From positions 1-33,291 of the forward strand of contig CALUKH010000020.1 in NCBI GenBank assembly GCA_944321185.1: a stretch of 33,291 bases of DNA, read 5' to 3'. The DNA comes from an uncultured Alistipes sp. GTDB taxonomy: Bacteria; Bacteroidota; Bacteroidia; Bacteroidales; Rikenellaceae. This document shows, piece by piece, positions 1-7,341 of this stretch (the first letter of the stretch is position 1; the number at the start of each line of letters is the position of its first letter). A program made the translations under genes and the position numbers. The notes beneath the pieces are model-generated. The model ran no database searches, was not told where the DNA came from, and was given only the letters and a program-made list of their open reading frames with translations.

Positions 1-983
1 GTCGAGGCGCGGACCGTGGTCACGTCGTAGGTTTCGATGTAGTAGATCACGTCGCGGATGGCGTCCAGACCCTCCTGGATCGTGTAGTGGATCTCGTGGT
101 GGACGGTACCGATGTGTTCGGCGACCTTGCGTGCGGCGGCCAGGTCGGGCGAACCCTCCAGTCCCACGGCGAACGAGTGCAGCTGCGGCCACCAGGCGGC
201 ATCGCGGCCGCCGCTTTCGATGCGTCGGTCGGCGAACTTCTTGGCCACGGCCGAGATGATCGACGAATCGAGCCCGCCCGAGAGCAGCACGCCGTACGGC
301 ACGTCGGACATCAGCTGCCGGCGGACGGCCTCCTCGAGAGCCGTGCGGAGCTGGGCGATGTCGGTCTTGTTGTCCTTCACGGCGTCGTAGTCGAACCAGT
401 CGCGGCGGTACCAGCGCACCATCCGACCCTCCTTCGACGACCAGTAGTGGCCCGGTAGGAAGGGCTGGATCGTCGTGCAGACCCCTTCGAGGGCCTTCAG
501 CTCCGAGGCGACGTAGAACTGTTCGTCGCGGTCCCAGCCGATGTAGAGCGGGATGACGCCGATCGGGTCGCGGGCGATCAGATACTCGTCGTGTTCGATG
601 TCGTAGAGGGCGAAGGCGAAGATGCCGCTGATCTTTTCGAGCATCCCGAGTCCCATCTTGCGGTAGAGGGGCAGGATCACCTCGCAGTCGGAACCGGTCA
701 TGAAGTCGTACTCCGAGGCCAGTTCGGCACGGATCTCGCGGTGGTTGTAGATTTCGCCGTTGACGGCCAGCACGAGCTTTCCGTCACGACTGTACAGGGG
801 TTGCCGGCCCGACTGCGGGTCGACGATCGAGAGGCGTTCGTGCGCCAGAATCGCCCGCGGTCCGCAGTAGATTCCCGACCAGTCGGGACCGCGGTGGCGA
901 ATCTGTTTCGACATTTTCAGCACCTGGGTGCGCAGCGCATCCGACGGCTGCCGGATGTCGAACAATCCTACGAATCCACACAT
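1..983 (-). CDS. asnB: asparagine synthetase B, glutamine-hydrolysing (5' part; 3' end outside the window)
   Basis: Makes asparagine from aspartate, ATP and glutamine in the cytosol. The start is fixed by MCGFVGLFD, where Cys2 becomes the N-terminal nucleophile of the class II glutamine amidotransferase domain. RGPD (31-34) and NGEIYN (75-80) are further glutaminase-domain motifs. The synthetase half begins with the PP-loop SGGLDSS (235-241). About 327 codons are present of the usual ~550, and the frame runs open off the left edge. It begins 35 nt after the ilvC stop on the same strand with no visible terminator or -7 box between, so it is probably the last gene of the ilv transcript; that link is inference. 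Identity is secure. Confidence 0.95.
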   Translation of the reverse strand, partial: MCGFVGLFDIRQPSDALRTQVLKMSKQIRHRGPDWSGIYCGPRAILAHERLSIVDPQSGRQPLYSRDGKLVLAVNGEIYNHREIRAELASEYDFMTGSDCEVILPLYRKMGLGMLEKISGIFAFALYDIEHDEYLIARDPIGVIPLYIGWDRDEQFYVASELKALEGVCTTIQPFLPGHYWSSKEGRMVRWYRRDWFDYDAVKDNKTDIAQLRTALEEAVRRQLMSDVPYGVLLSGGLDSSIISAVAKKFADRRIESGGRDAAWWPQLHSFAVGLEGSPDLAAARKVAEHIGTVHHEIHYTIQEGLDAIRDVIYYIETYDVTTVRAS

Positions 984-2767: not shown

Positions 2768-4507
2768 TTATTCGAACCGGATTTCCGAGACGGGGGCTCC
2801 GGCGGGCACCATCGGAAAGACGTTTTCCTGGCGTTCGACGCGCACTTCGAGCAGCGAGGCGCCCTCCGAGGCCTTCATTTCGGCCACGGCGTCGTTGAGC
2901 TCCTCACGGCGTTCGACGCAGCGGTAGGAGAGGCCGTTGGCGCGGGCGATCATCCCGAAATCGGGGTTCGTGAGTTCGGTGAACGAGTAGCGCGAATCGT
3001 AGAAGAGCTCCTGCCACTGGCGGACCATGCCGAGGAACGCATTGTTCAGCAGGACGATCTTGACCGGGACGCGCGACTGGAAGATTGTGCCCAGCTCCTG
3101 GATGGTCATCTGCAGACCGCCGTCGCCGACAAAGAGCACCACGTCACGGTCCGGAGCGCCGAGTTTGGCACCGATGGCGGCCGGCAGCCCGAATCCCATC
3201 GTACCCAGCCCGCCCGAGGTGACCAGACTGCGCGTGCGGCGGAATCCGAAGTAACGGGCGGCGAACATCTGCTGCTGTCCGACGTCGGTGACCACCACGG
3301 CATCGTTCTCGTAGGCGCGGGCCACCGCCGCCACGGCTTCGCCCATGTGGATGCGGCCGCCTGCGGGGTGCAGGGCCGGCCGGATGACGCGCTCCTCTTC
3401 GATGCGGTCGCAGGCGCGGAATCCGGCGATCCAGTCGCTGTGGTCGCGGCGGTGGATGAGCCGGGTCAGCATCGGCAGCGTCTCGCGCACGTCGCCCGCC
3501 ACGGGAACGTCGGCCGGGATGATTTTGCCGATCTCCGCGGGGTCGATCTCCAGGTGGATGACCTTGGCATGCTCGCCGAAATGCTTCGGGGAACCCGTCA
3601 CGCGGTCGTCGAACCGCATCCCGATGGCGACGATCAGATCGCACTCGCGGTTGCGGATGTTGGGGCCGTAGTTGCCGTGCATGCCGAGCATGCCGACGTA
3701 TTGCGGGTCGTCGGTCGGTACGGCCGACAGCCCCAGCAGGGTCGAGGCTACGGGCATGCCGCTCTTTTCGAGGAAGGCCCGCAGGGCGCTCTCGGCATTC
3801 CCGAGCAGGACGCCCTGTCCGACCATCACCAGCGGGCGCCGGGCGCTGTCGATCAGCCGGGCAGCCTCCTCGATACACTCCGGGTCGGGCTCCGGGACGG
3901 GAACGTAACTGCGGATCGACGTGACTTTCTCGTAGTGAAACGGCGCCGTGCCGCACTGGGCATCCTTCGTGATGTCGACGACCACCGGGCCGGGGCGTCC
4001 CGAACGGGCCACGTAGAAGGCCTTGGCCATGGCGGCCGGAATATCCTCGGTGCGTTTGACCTGACAGTTCCATTTGGTGACGGCCTGCGTGATGCCGACG
4101 AAGTTGGTCTCCTGGAAGGCGTCGGTGCCGAGCAGTTCGGAGCCGACCTGTCCGGTGACCAGTACCAGCGGCGTGGAGTCCATCAGCGCATCGGCCAGCC
4201 CCGTGACGGTGTTCGTGGCGCCCGGCCCCGAGGTGACCAGACAGACCCCGACGCGTCCGCTGACACGGGCATAGCCCTGGGCGGCGTGGACGGCTCCCTG
4301 TTCGTGGCGCACCAGAATGTGACGCAGCCGGTCGCGGTAGTCGTACAGTGCGTCGTAGACCGGGATGATGGCGCCGCCCGGATAGCCGAAAAGCGTGTCG
4401 ACGCCCTCGATCAGAAACGATTCGAGCAGGGCCTGCGAGCCCGTCATGCGGGGGCCGTCGACCGTTTGTTGTGTTTCGTCGGATGAGGTATTCATGGTTG
4501 CATTCAT
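2768..4507 (-). CDS. ilvB: acetolactate synthase large (catalytic) subunit
   Basis: ThDP- and FAD-dependent condensation of pyruvate with pyruvate or 2-oxobutyrate, first common step of Val/Leu/Ile synthesis. Seen: N-terminal ThDP domain with the catalytic Glu in RHEQGAVHAAQGYAR (E69), SGPGATNTVTGLADA, a central FAD-binding domain, and the C-terminal ThDP/Mg motif beginning GDGGLQM and ending LLNNAFLGM. With the ATG at 4507, 19 nt after ilvD, the protein has 579 aa; an ATG four codons later (4495) is equally possible. The open frame reaches further upstream but would then run into ilvD, so that is not the start. Length is standard for the family (~560-590). Confidence 0.95.
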   Translation of the reverse strand: MNATMNTSSDETQQTVDGPRMTGSQALLESFLIEGVDTLFGYPGGAIIPVYDALYDYRDRLRHILVRHEQGAVHAAQGYARVSGRVGVCLVTSGPGATNTVTGLADALMDSTPLVLVTGQVGSELLGTDAFQETNFVGITQAVTKWNCQVKRTEDIPAAMAKAFYVARSGRPGPVVVDITKDAQCGTAPFHYEKVTSIRSYVPVPEPDPECIEEAARLIDSARRPLVMVGQGVLLGNAESALRAFLEKSGMPVASTLLGLSAVPTDDPQYVGMLGMHGNYGPNIRNRECDLIVAIGMRFDDRVTGSPKHFGEHAKVIHLEIDPAEIGKIIPADVPVAGDVRETLPMLTRLIHRRDHSDWIAGFRACDRIEEERVIRPALHPAGGRIHMGEAVAAVARAYENDAVVVTDVGQQQMFAARYFGFRRTRSLVTSGGLGTMGFGLPAAIGAKLGAPDRDVVLFVGDGGLQMTIQELGTIFQSRVPVKIVLLNNAFLGMVRQWQELFYDSRYSFTELTNPDFGMIARANGLSYRCVERREELNDAVAEMKASEGASLLEVRVERQENVFPMVPAGAPVSEIRFE

Positions 4508-4526: not shown

Positions 4527-6368
4527 TTACTGTTCTTCGCCGTCGAGGATCCGGACGGCACCGCGGTCGGCCGAGCTGACCAGCCGGGCGTAGGCTTGCA
4601 GCGAACGCGGCACCTGACGGTCGCGGGCCTCGGGGCGGAAGTGGCGCCGTGCGGCCATGCGCGAGGCAATCTCCGTGTCGTCGACCAGCAGCCGGATCGA
4701 ACGTTTCGGGATGTCGATTTCGATCTCGTCGCCCGTCTGTACGATGGCGATTTCGCCACCGGCGGCGGCTTCCGGCGAGACATGACCGATCGAGAGACCC
4801 GACGTACCGCCCGAGAAGCGTCCGTCGGTGATCAGCGCGCAGAGTTTGTCCAGGTGCTTCGACTTGAGGTATGACGTTGGGTAGAGCATCTCCTGCATGC
4901 CGGGGCCTCCCTTCGGGCCTTCGTAGCGGATGACGACCACCTCGCCGGGCTGTACTTCGTCGGCGAGAATGCCGTTCATGGCCTGCTCCTGCGATTCGTA
5001 GACGCGGGCCCGGCCGCGGAAGACGAAGAGACTCTGGTCGACACCGGCCGTCTTGACGACGCATCCCGAGCGGGCGATGTTGCCCGTCAGCACGGCCAGT
5101 CCGCCGTCGCGGAAGTAGGCGTGGTCCAGGTCGCGGATGCACCCTTCAGCACGATCCGTGTCGGGGGCTTCGTAGTAGCAGTGCTGCGAGCCCATTTCGC
5201 GGCTGTAGTGGCCGGCCGGGGCACTCAGCGAGCGGCGCCGTGCGGCATCGGTGACCGTCGGCGAGCGCAGGTCGCAGGCGGCGATGGCTTCGCCCAGTGT
5301 GCGTCCGTCGACGCGCCAGACCGTCGTGTCGAGCAGCCCGCCGCGGTTGAGCTCGCCGAGGATCGAGAGGATGCCGCCGGCGCAGTTGACATCCTGAATG
5401 TGATAATGCGAGTTGGGGGCCACCTTGCAGAGCACCGGCACGCGGCGCGAGAGGCGGTCGATGTCCTGCATCGTGAAGTCGACGCCCGCCTCGTGGGCTA
5501 CGGCCAGCAGATGCAGCACCGTATTGGTCGAACCGCCCATGGCGATGTCGAGCGACATGGCGTTCTCGAAGGCAGCCTTCGTGGCGATCGCGCGGGGCAG
5601 CACGCGTTCGTCCCCCTCGAAGTAGTAGCGTTCGGCATTGCGTACGATCAGTGCGGCGGCATCCTCGAACAGCTGACGGCGGTTGGCGTGCGTGGCGACG
5701 ATCGTTCCGTTGCCCGGCAGCGAGAGCCCCAGCGCCTCGGTCAGGCAGTTCATCGAATTGGCGGTGAACATCCCCGAGCAGGAACCGCATCCCGGGCAGG
5801 CGGCGCGTTCGACCCGGGCGATCTCCTCGTCCGAATACTTCGCGTCGGCCGACATGACCATGGCGTCGATCAGATCGAGGTCGCGGTTGCCGAGGCGTCC
5901 GGCCTCCATCGGGCCGCCCGAGACGAAGATCGTCGGCAGATTGAGCCGCATGGCGGCCATCAGCATGCCGGGGGTGATCTTGTCGCAGTTCGAGATGCAG
6001 ACCAGGGCATCGATCTTGTGGGCGTTGGCCATGTATTCGACGCTGTCGGCGATGATTTCGCGCGAGGGGAGCGAGTAGAGCATGCCGTCGTGGCCCATGG
6101 CGATGCCGTCGTCGATGGCTATGGTGTCGAATTCGGCGGCGAAACAGCCGAGGCTTTCGATGCGTTGTTTGACCAGCTGGCCGACCTCATGCAGGTGGAC
6201 GTGGCCGGGGACGAACTGCGTGAAGGAGTTGGCGATGCCGATGACGGGGCGTCCGAACTGCTCTTCGCGCATGCCGTTGGCACGCCACAGGCTCCGGGCT
6301 CCGGCCATGCGTCGTCCCGCGAGGGTGACGGCGCTTCTGAGTGGATGTTTCATCTTTTGCGGTTCCAT
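4527..6368 (-). CDS. ilvD: dihydroxy-acid dehydratase
   Basis: Dehydrates 2,3-dihydroxy-isovalerate or -methylvalerate to the 2-oxo acids. The 613 aa protein is collinear with the E. coli type (616 aa): [18 protein letters not shown] (41-58), [11 protein letters not shown] with cluster ligand C128, and [18 protein letters not shown] with C197. The Ser at the position where plant and actinobacterial 2Fe-2S enzymes carry a Cys suggests the oxygen-sensitive 4Fe-4S type; that class call is inference. Start [10 protein letters not shown]; a second Met at codon 6 is possible. It is the first structural gene of the ilv operon and begins 34 nt downstream of the attenuator hairpin described separately. 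Confidence 0.96.
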
Positions 6369-6402
6369 GTTTGCATTTCGACACGGTGGGCTCTGAAACG
6401 AA

Positions 6403-6434
6403 AGAACCTTTCTCCGGGGTGGGAGAAAGGTTCT
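6403..6434 (-). terminator. ilv attenuator: terminator hairpin with competing antiterminator
   Basis: Perfect 13-bp inverted repeat (6403-6415 with 6422-6434, 6-nt loop) lying between the leader peptide and ilvD. On the transcribed strand the 3' arm is followed by UUCGUUUC, a modest U-rich tail. The 5' arm can instead pair with GGGAGGAAGGU (template 6459-6469), which spans the last codons and stop of the leader peptide: 11 contiguous pairs with a single G-U, against positions 6421-6431. The two helices are mutually exclusive, the classical layout of terminator versus antiterminator. The pairing is seen directly; its regulatory action is inferred. Confidence 0.85.
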
Positions 6435-6456
6435 CTGTATGCTTCGATCAGGTACG

Positions 6457-6543
6457 TCACCTTCCTCCCGTTATCCTTTTATTGACCACGAGCAGCACGT
6501 TAATGACGTTAATGACGAGATTCGAATGATTCAGGGCAATCAT
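6457..6543 (-). CDS. ilvL: ilv operon leader peptide (28 aa, attenuation peptide)
   Basis: Short ORF: ATG at 6543, TGA at 6457-6459. Of 28 residues 13 are Ile, Leu or Val, and residues 9-20 read [12 protein letters not shown], including a 9-bp tandem duplication of GTCATTAAC. The start lies about 27 nt beyond a promoter -7 box and has an AAGG just upstream. The stop is 22 nt before the terminator hairpin, and the antiterminator strand begins inside the final codons. In the known enterobacterial ilv/leu systems, a ribosome stalled at such codons for lack of charged Ile/Leu/Val tRNA leaves this strand free, so transcription continues into ilvD; the same logic fits here. There is no sequence similarity to enterobacterial IlvL beyond composition. 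Confidence 0.85.
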
Positions 6544-6569
6544 GCCTTACAGTTTCTTTGGTTGTGAAG

Positions 6570-6600
6570 CAAAGATAGACAATTCGAATGAAACGAGCAA
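6570..6600 (-). promoter_or_regulatory. ilv operon promoter
   Basis: On the minus strand TTG (6598-6600) is followed, after a 20-nt spacer, by TATCTTTG (6570-6577), matching the Bacteroidota -33/-7 promoter. Expected transcription start is near 6563, giving about 20 nt before the leader peptide ATG. The spacer holds ATTCGAAT (6582-6589), a palindrome that recurs in the leader and before ilvC. Confidence 0.75.
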
Positions 6601-6904
6601 GAAATTTTCTAAAGAAATTTAATAATATGACGATTCGAAATCAAAATTTGGAAATTATCTTTAAAAACCGTAAAAAAATCGGGCGCTAAAGTTACGATTC
6701 ATTATCCGCTCTTGAGCGGGTTCGGCCATCTTCTGAGTCTTGACTGCAACCGGCGGATAGCGGTCGAAAGGCTGCTTTCAGTTTTTCGGTCTGTGCGGGT
6801 CCGAAACGACTTGTTTTTCACTTATATATAAGGTGTGTTTTGTATATATGTGTAAAAATGCTTACAAATTGTTACCGGCTCTTGGATTATTAAAATATTT
6901 GTTT
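6601..6904. other. AT-rich intergenic region between divergent ilv and thr units
   Basis: No gene is supported here. The left half is AT-rich and carries ATTCGAAA (6633-6640), a relative of the site in the ilv promoter. A small perfect hairpin (CCGCTC, 2-nt loop, GAGCGG, 6706-6719) has no T-run on either side. The right end (from about 6880) forms the promoter region of the thr unit. Confidence 0.5.
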
Positions 6905-6912
6905 TATATTTG
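6882..6912 (+). promoter_or_regulatory. promoter upstream of the thr leader and thrB
   Basis: TTG at 6882-6884, a 20-nt spacer and TATATTTG at 6905-6912 match the Bacteroidota -33/-7 promoter. A start near 6918 would leave an untranslated or partly translated leader of more than 400 nt before thrB. Confidence 0.65.
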
Positions 6913-6918
6913 TCCTCG

Positions 6919-7107
6919 ATGAATCGTCAGAGAAACCATACGGCTCGGATGGACGCTTTCGGATCTGCCGTCGCCATGCGCGGATCGGAGGCTCGGGGGA
7001 ACGAATATTTCGTTGCCCGGCTGTCGGGTGGTTTCGCCGTCGGTTGCCTGACCGTCGGCACGACGTCCCATACCGTCACCGGTACCACCCCTGTGGGGGT
7101 CCTGTAA
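6919..7107 (+). CDS. possible threonine leader peptide ORF upstream of thrB
   Basis: Open frame of 62 codons, ATG at 6919, with in-frame ATGs at 6949 and 6976 (52 or 43 aa). Its last 20 residues (from CLTVGTT to PVGVL) contain seven Thr codons (ACC/ACG) and several Val, just before a TAA. Position (first ORF after a good promoter, about 235 nt before homoserine kinase) and composition recall enterobacterial thrL. Against it: the N-terminal part looks unremarkable, the first ATG falls almost on the predicted transcription start, and I find no convincing U-tailed terminator downstream. Small helices such as GGTTCCG/CGGAACC (7246-7263) exist but lack a T-run. Treat as a candidate only. Confidence 0.35.
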   Translation: MNRQRNHTARMDAFGSAVAMRGSEARGNEYFVARLSGGFAVGCLTVGTTSHTVTGTTPVGVL

Positions 7108-7341
7108 TCATCATCCGTCGCATCGTCGCATGCATCCCGGCCCAGGCTGCCGGAGCGGATATTCACCGAAAAAACACTCTCCGAATCGATCCCGACCCGG
7201 GAATCGCCTGTCCAGGACCGCTTCTGGCGGCGCTGTTCCGGAGGCCGGTTCCGGATGCGGAACCTGTCGCGGCACATTGCCCGGCGACCTGTTCGGAGAC
7301 CAATCGATTTCGAAGTTTTATCCTCAAAATGCAAAATCAAA

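Follow-up and report, generated by a model that had tools for sequence, protein, structure and literature searches.

A probable ribosome-mediated transcription attenuator in the leader of the ilvDBNC operon of an uncultured Alistipes, conserved in many Bacteroidales

The window analyzed here, meaning the whole stretch of 33,291 nucleotides from an uncultured Alistipes sp. of the Rikenellaceae (contig CALUKH010000020.1 of assembly GCA_944321185.1), carries an ilv operon on its minus strand. In the direction of transcription, this operon comprises ilvD (4527-6368; dihydroxy-acid dehydratase, NF009103 and TIGR00110), ilvB (2768-4447; acetolactate synthase large subunit, TIGR00118), ilvN (2202-2753; acetolactate synthase small subunit, TIGR00119) and ilvC (1019-2065; ketol-acid reductoisomerase, TIGR00465), with all of these family matches lying above the respective cut-offs. 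The start of ilvB was estimated from the beginning of the TIGR00118 match, and its open frame extends to 4783. Behind ilvC and in the same direction there is an asnB-like asparagine synthase gene (1-983, minus strand; PF13537 and PF00733) which runs off the window and which, as inferred from the spacing, is likely co-transcribed with the ilv operon. Among named records the closest ilvD is 97% identical and belongs to an uncultured Alistipes. A thrB-thrC operon, recognized by family matches, diverges from the ilv operon on the plus strand and shares the same intergenic region.

The ilv leader contains, all on the minus strand and in this order, a promoter, an ORF of 28 codons and a terminator hairpin, followed by ilvD. 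The -7 box TATCTTTG of the putative promoter (6577-6570) is of the Bacteroidota sigma-ABfr type, TAnnTTTG, and a TTG located 20 nt upstream of it (6600-6598) is a possible -33 element. The leader peptide ORF (6543-6457), for which matching leaders exist in relatives, includes 13 codons for Ile, Leu or Val, and its control codons lie at 6484-6519. The last leader codons together with the first base of the stop codon make up strand A (6469-6459), the antiterminator 5' strand GGGAGGAAGGT. The shared strand B (6421-6434) comprises the terminator 5' arm AGAACCTTTCTCC (6434-6422) as well as the antiterminator 3' strand ACCTTTCTCCC (6431-6421), and strand C (6415-6403) is the terminator 3' arm GGAGAAAGGTTCT. 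The terminator consists of 13 Watson-Crick pairs that enclose the loop CACCCC and is followed by TTCGTTTC; a T-rich but impure tract (6393-6405) covers the end of the stem and the stretch after it. In RNAfold calculations the stem reaches 15 contiguous pairs, with two more behind a bulge in the minimum free energy (MFE) structure.

The antiterminator helix A:B has 11 pairs, one of them G-U, and is present in the MFE structure once the terminator 3' arm is omitted from the folded sequence. The two helices have 6422-6431 in common and are mutually exclusive. When the full untranslated leader was folded, the MFE structure contained the terminator and strand A was partly held by the control-codon segment. 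In this ribosome-free situation a segment resembling strand 1 (6488-6509) is base-paired to the antiterminator strand and to the nucleotides that follow it, including the 7-bp helix ACGUCAU:GUGACGU. Recounting and folding reproduced the numbers of codons, of Ile/Leu/Val residues and of base pairs in both stems given in the original prediction, and its claim that promoter, leader peptide, perfect terminator and exclusive antiterminator precede ilvD in this order was confirmed in sequence and folds. A generic terminator scan of the window did not list the ilv leader hairpin, probably because the first Ts are taken up into the stem and the T tail behind it is impure. When the upstream region was shuffled 1500 times with its dinucleotides kept, no shuffle combined leader, terminator and antiterminator, and 18 had leader and terminator alone; an ATG ORF of 18-40 amino acids with at least 13 Ile, Leu or Val appeared in 12 of 3000 shuffles.

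Conservation was studied in an order survey of 76 regions upstream of Bacteroidales ilvD genes of the same type and with an intact 5' end, excluding the own genome. Any ilvD match was found in 82 of the 197 genomes searched for this survey, and matches to a second type of ilvD (35-40% identity) as well as fragments were dropped before counting. According to a fixed rule, which ignores the distance of the ORF from ilvD and of which the T-rich end was a part, 51 of the 76 regions had all three parts, 14 had leader and terminator, 1 had the leader only and 10 had nothing. The corresponding numbers were 5, 46, 304 and 405 for 760 shuffles and 1, 6, 28 and 41 for the 76 reverse complements. Leader and terminator or better were therefore present in 65 of 76 regions versus 51 of 760 shuffles. 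In 8 of these 65 successes (L136, L149, L101, L104, L168, L170, L175 and L196) the chosen leader starts more than 240 nt upstream of ilvD and may be the wrong ORF; without them, leader and terminator remain in 57 and all three parts in 44 of the 76 regions, the shuffles not being likewise filtered. Inspection by eye of the 11 failures revealed a long open frame ending shortly before ilvD in three of them (L185, L188 and L194) and, in L187, a leader-like ORF and a hairpin that the rule had overlooked. With or without the doubtful cases, the check in relatives that had been proposed along with the original prediction came out in its favour.

A second set consisted of 80 ilvD loci from named genomes, of which one (L067) was dropped because its upstream region was too short. 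Among the remaining 79 loci, 58 had all parts, 7 had leader and terminator, 11 the leader only and 3 none, compared to 2, 46, 245 and 497 of 790 shuffles and to 1, 3, 33 and 42 of the reverse complements. A search of the phylum outside the order provided 27 upstream loci, with all parts in 0, leader and terminator in 5 and leader only in 12 of them (0, 7 and 78, respectively, in 270 shuffles). Of 20 further regions from outside the order, 13 allowed the ilvD start to be assigned, some of them on very weak grounds, and these 13, for which there is no shuffle control, included 1 full attenuator, 3 cases with leader and terminator, 2 with leader only and 7 with none. As full attenuators are few outside Bacteroidales, we make no phylum-wide claim. 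As an observation in its own right, an Ile/Val/Leu-rich ORF is located upstream of 17 of the 27 ilvD genes from other classes of the phylum (L109-L135) versus 85 of 270 shuffles; the ORF of L113 ends with VVIPQVSTVVL, and in L112 the long complementary arms GGTCAACCCC and GGGGTTGAC lie behind the ORF without a clear T tract, as they do similarly in some other loci.

The motif TAnnTTTG, the consensus for the Bacteroidota -7 box as quoted in PMC7366714, is found in the 70 nt preceding the leader start for 105 of 130 leaders, versus 7.5% of shuffles, with a median distance of 24 nt to the leader start codon in the 130-leader set.

The position of the terminator stem relative to ilvD was also considered. 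In the 65 order-survey regions with leader and terminator the end of the stem and the aligned ilvD start are separated by a median of 15 nt, near enough to hinder initiation, and the T tract of the window is impure; both features would suit attenuation at the level of translation, in which the main role of the B:C hairpin is to keep ribosomes from the ilvD start region, the ribosome on the leader opens it by the switch to A:B and little termination takes place. However, at least 4 T within 7 nt form a T-rich tail behind the stem in 52 of the 65 relatives, which a purely translational switch would not need, and the window has 34 nt between the end of the 13-bp stem and the ilvD start at 6368. 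We consider this alternative unlikely and favour attenuation of transcription.

Strand A was located in each sequence separately, with shuffled and swapped-arm controls, because MAFFT columns misalign A in more divergent leaders. Among 70 leaders with a terminator, the window included (5 of 75 were lost), A:B scores of at least 8 of 9 were reached by 51, compared to 1.3% of 1400 shuffled controls. For 130 distinct leaders, this score was obtained in 66% with the own arm, a value somewhat favoured by the fact that these leaders were picked by a rule rewarding a good antiterminator, and in 9% of 1300 combinations with a swapped arm, for which the same upstream strands were used and the arm came from another locus and differed at 2 or more positions. 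Most arms are similar, with CCTTTCT present in 60 of 88 well-matched leaders, and the 31 distinct shared-arm 9-mers of the 130-leader set include shifted registers of one arm. Clearly different arms with a matching strand A include CCTTTCCAC, CCATTCTCA, TTTCCGGGT and ACATGCCGA, which implies more than one joint change of the three strands. The competing helices of the original prediction thus vary jointly in relatives, as judged by the comparison of own with swapped arms.

Some further properties of these strands were observed. The predominance of CCTTTCT makes the terminator arm more uniform across leaders than pairing alone seems to need. The usual strand A, GGAGAAAGGT, is Shine-Dalgarno-like, for example in L009, L016 and L022, and its partner CCTTTCTCC resembles the 3' end of 16S rRNA. 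The Bacteroidota phylum is not known to rely on Shine-Dalgarno initiation.

Strand A is located inside the ORF in the closest relatives of the window and just 3' of the stop codon in many other leaders. The distance from the last control-codon pair to the start of strand A has a median of 14 nt (interquartile range 13-15; 52 leaders) and amounts to 19 nt in the window. As strand A keeps its distance to the control codons and not to the stop codon, it appears to be constrained relative to the site where a ribosome would stall. An ordinary small gene or a source of small RNA, equipped with a constitutive terminator and with an accidental second helix, might explain a leader and a terminator, which the loose rule does find in 51 of 760 shuffled regions. 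The preference of strand A for its own over a foreign B arm (66% versus 9%), which extends to arms such as CCTTTCCAC, TTTCCGGGT and ACATGCCGA, and the constant distance of A to Ile/Leu/Val codons while its position relative to the stop codon shifts, speak against such an explanation and make it very improbable.

Transcription attenuation coupled to translation was modelled by folding 110 of the 130 leaders (A:B score of at least 7) with ribosomes whose footprint lengths were assumed from general knowledge. When a ribosome occupied the control codons, the predicted probability of A:B had a median of 0.99 (108 leaders) and was 0.997 for the window. When the ribosome had reached the stop codon, a median of 9 of the 9 core nucleotides of strand A was covered and the terminator was predicted with a median probability of 0.96 (110 leaders) or of 0.98 for the window. 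In ribosome-free RNA ending before the 3' arm, the median probability of A:B was 0.79, and 34% of the 110 leaders had values below 0.3, compared to a median of 0.99 and to 4% below 0.3 in controls with shuffled upstream sequence; the antiterminator of the window had a probability of 0.06 under these conditions. A direct count of strand-1 complementarity in 88 leaders gave a weak signal (4.5% versus 2.2%). The folding models suggest that some members of the family, the window among them, have a protector pairing of strand 1. At equilibrium, the full free RNA adopted the terminator with a median probability of 0.95, and since the free RNA folds into the terminator anyway, the switch must act during transcription.

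When 6300-7300 was searched with Rfam models at E ≤ 5, no amino-acid, T-box or leader-peptide family was obtained, and a T-box riboswitch was rejected for lack of a covariance-model match in the window. A tRNA- or metabolite-sensing riboswitch accompanied by a chance ORF, for which the T-box of the B. subtilis ilv-leu operon mentioned in PMC5794164 would be a precedent, can be practically dismissed, as the ORF and the two helices fill the leader and as a tRNA gene elsewhere is the only gathering-level Rfam match in the window.

Anatomy, conservation, joint change of the strands and geometry all support the original reading of this leader as an attenuator of the textbook type, and we conclude from sequence and folding analyses that the ilvDBNC leader very probably is a ribosome-mediated, that is translation-coupled, transcription attenuator. 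We infer its termination in vivo, the stalling of ribosomes and the identity of the sensed amino acids as follows. RNA polymerase would start from the promoter at 6577-6570 and a ribosome would enter the leader ORF behind the polymerase. When charged Ile-, Leu- or Val-tRNA is scarce, the ribosome would stall on the control codons with a footprint that stops short of strand A, so that A could pair with B once B is made, whereby the terminator would be blocked and the operon transcribed. When the tRNAs are charged, the ribosome would reach the stop codon and cover strand A, B and C would pair, and transcription would end near 6400. An untranslated leader should likewise tend to terminate in this genome, since its control-codon segment is free to pair with A.

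Some findings argue against an attenuator or caution against overrating it. The order survey contained 11 of 76 regions without leader and terminator and 14 more without a clear antiterminator, and in the folding model only about one leader in three showed a clear sequestration of strand A in ribosome-free RNA. Also, for S. coelicolor ilvB, leader codon changes are reported in PMC1262725 to be without effect despite the presence of a leader and of alternative structures, so attenuator anatomy alone can mislead.

With regard to the amino acids sensed, the 130 leaders contain 513 Leu, 473 Val and 470 Ile residues, and all three occur together in 124 of them. This composition fits a control by Ile, Leu and Val together, their relative weights lying beyond what sequence can tell.

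On the other side of the intergenic region, the thr operon is preceded on the plus strand by the -7 box TATATTTG (6905-6912), which ends 6 nt before an ATG at 6919, so the thr mRNA may be nearly leaderless. A Thr-rich leader ORF (6919-7107) ends with TVGTTSHTVTGTTPVGVL and includes the hairpin ACCCC-NNNN-GGGGU (7087-7100), which is kept in relatives; a conserved, possibly multi-helix RNA, recognized in ten relatives, continues to about 7159. Many of these ten relatives (L001-L010) have a longer run of Thr, which reaches twelve consecutive residues in L010; the TPVGV ending and the ACCCC-loop-GGGGU hairpin are constant, and further helices downstream are possible. Counting of pairs in the thr element showed no pair changed on both sides, hence no evidence of co-variation, and as its pairs hardly vary, the structure is proposed and not proven. 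Neither an intrinsic terminator nor a relevant Rfam match was seen in the thr leader of the window.

A covariance model of the thr element matched 4 of 295 genomes of the order, the own genome included, the others being L204 (E = 2.7e-6) as well as L205 and L206 (both 0.026). The ORF of L204 reads MISMTTTTTTTTPMGV and is followed by a kinase-like gene whose PF00696 score of 20.8 stays below the cut-off of 24.9 bits. In L205 the ORF ends with TTSTSTPWGVQ and precedes an aspartokinase-like gene; nothing like the thr leader was seen in the stretch of L206 examined. Upstream of thrA-like genes in Bacteroidales, an ORF ending of the T-P-x-G type occurred in 7 of 30 regions versus 3 of 900 shuffles, a count which includes L205, the source of the pattern, and L235, which fits only loosely; a stricter rule based on the number of Thr found 4 of 30 regions versus 2 of 600 shuffles. 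ORFs with T-P-x-G before aspartokinase (thrA-like) genes were noticed in L204, L205, L234, L235, L237, L241, L248 and L251. The exact thr-hairpin pattern was present in 3 of 295 genomes of the order (the own genome, L198 and L200) and in 3 of 38 relatives. The match in L200 lies inside an open frame and was rejected as probably due to chance. In L198, a SAM riboswitch (RF00162, 78.5 bits; 1207-1309) is followed by the hairpin CCGGCCNAGGCTGCCGG (1501-1517), which is the same as in the thr leader of the window, and an aspartokinase-like gene lies behind it.

The thr leader may be a Thr-codon leader whose last codons, T-P-x-G-V, encode a hairpin that is followed, in Alistipes, by the conserved multi-helix RNA. 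A more speculative proposal, which we put forward tentatively and hold to be possible rather than probable, is that the shared upstream region holds a divergent pair of leaders that both sense translation but differ in kind, namely the classical ilv attenuator and an undescribed Thr leader-peptide switch that would act through Rho or on translation.

The mechanism proposed for the ilv leader is known from the ilv, trp and his attenuators of enterobacteria. In the ilvGMEDA operon of E. coli and Salmonella, which includes ilvD, the single leader ilvL has Ile/Leu/Val control codons, an antiterminator and an intrinsic terminator. The Alistipes leader resembles ilvL in that one Ile/Leu/Val leader and alternative helices precede an operon with ilvD. 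In contrast, the Alistipes operon consists of ilvDBNC(-asnB) and has a promoter of the Bacteroidota type, and a clear strand-1 pairing is confined to some of the Bacteroidales ilv leaders. The independent origin suggested in the original prediction is at most a possibility, the Rfam searches having given no match at the region in either direction. Another cis-regulatory leader of Bacteroidetes is Bacteroid-trp (RF01692), which, to judge by its name, is probably a trp attenuator and which concerns trp and not ilv; it is absent from the window and from the own genome (79% complete). Classical attenuators were reportedly predicted by Vitreschak et al. in 2004, in a study whose abstract is said to name Bacteroidetes/Chlorobi, and also, reportedly, by Lopatovskaya et al. 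in 2010; citations of this work appear in PMC2864571 and PMC4833913. With Bacteroid-trp catalogued and the 2004 predictions reported for Bacteroidetes/Chlorobi, the novelty is below what the original prediction had implied, and the Bacteroidales ilv attenuator is a well-supported further example of a well-known mechanism and no new principle.

In the motif table of Weinberg et al. (2010; PMC2864571), Bacteroid-trp is entered as a Bacteroidetes cis-regulatory element. For ilvD of S. aureus, PMC5794164 describes a Leu-rich attenuator peptide and a terminator upstream, backed by evidence from mutants. A short Ile/Leu leader and a terminator upstream of ilvD are thus common to both systems, whereas the antiterminator proposed there for this member of the Bacillota pairs with the U tail of the terminator and leaves the stem intact, and the helices described here are mutually exclusive. 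Short ORFs reminiscent of attenuation leaders are mentioned for B. thetaiotaomicron, in general terms, in PMC7366714. Among the titles listed by a literature search that covered few subscription journals, none concerned an ilvD attenuator of Bacteroidales.

A role in attenuation would explain short ORFs that are often omitted by annotation. Translation-coupled attenuation requires that the first ribosome keeps pace with RNA polymerase, and a device of this kind that is kept in most sampled Bacteroidales with this type of ilvD would be evolutionary evidence for transcription-translation coupling, at least in leaders. In gut commensals, the ilv leader might also serve as a simple readout of coupling and of the supply of branched-chain amino acids.
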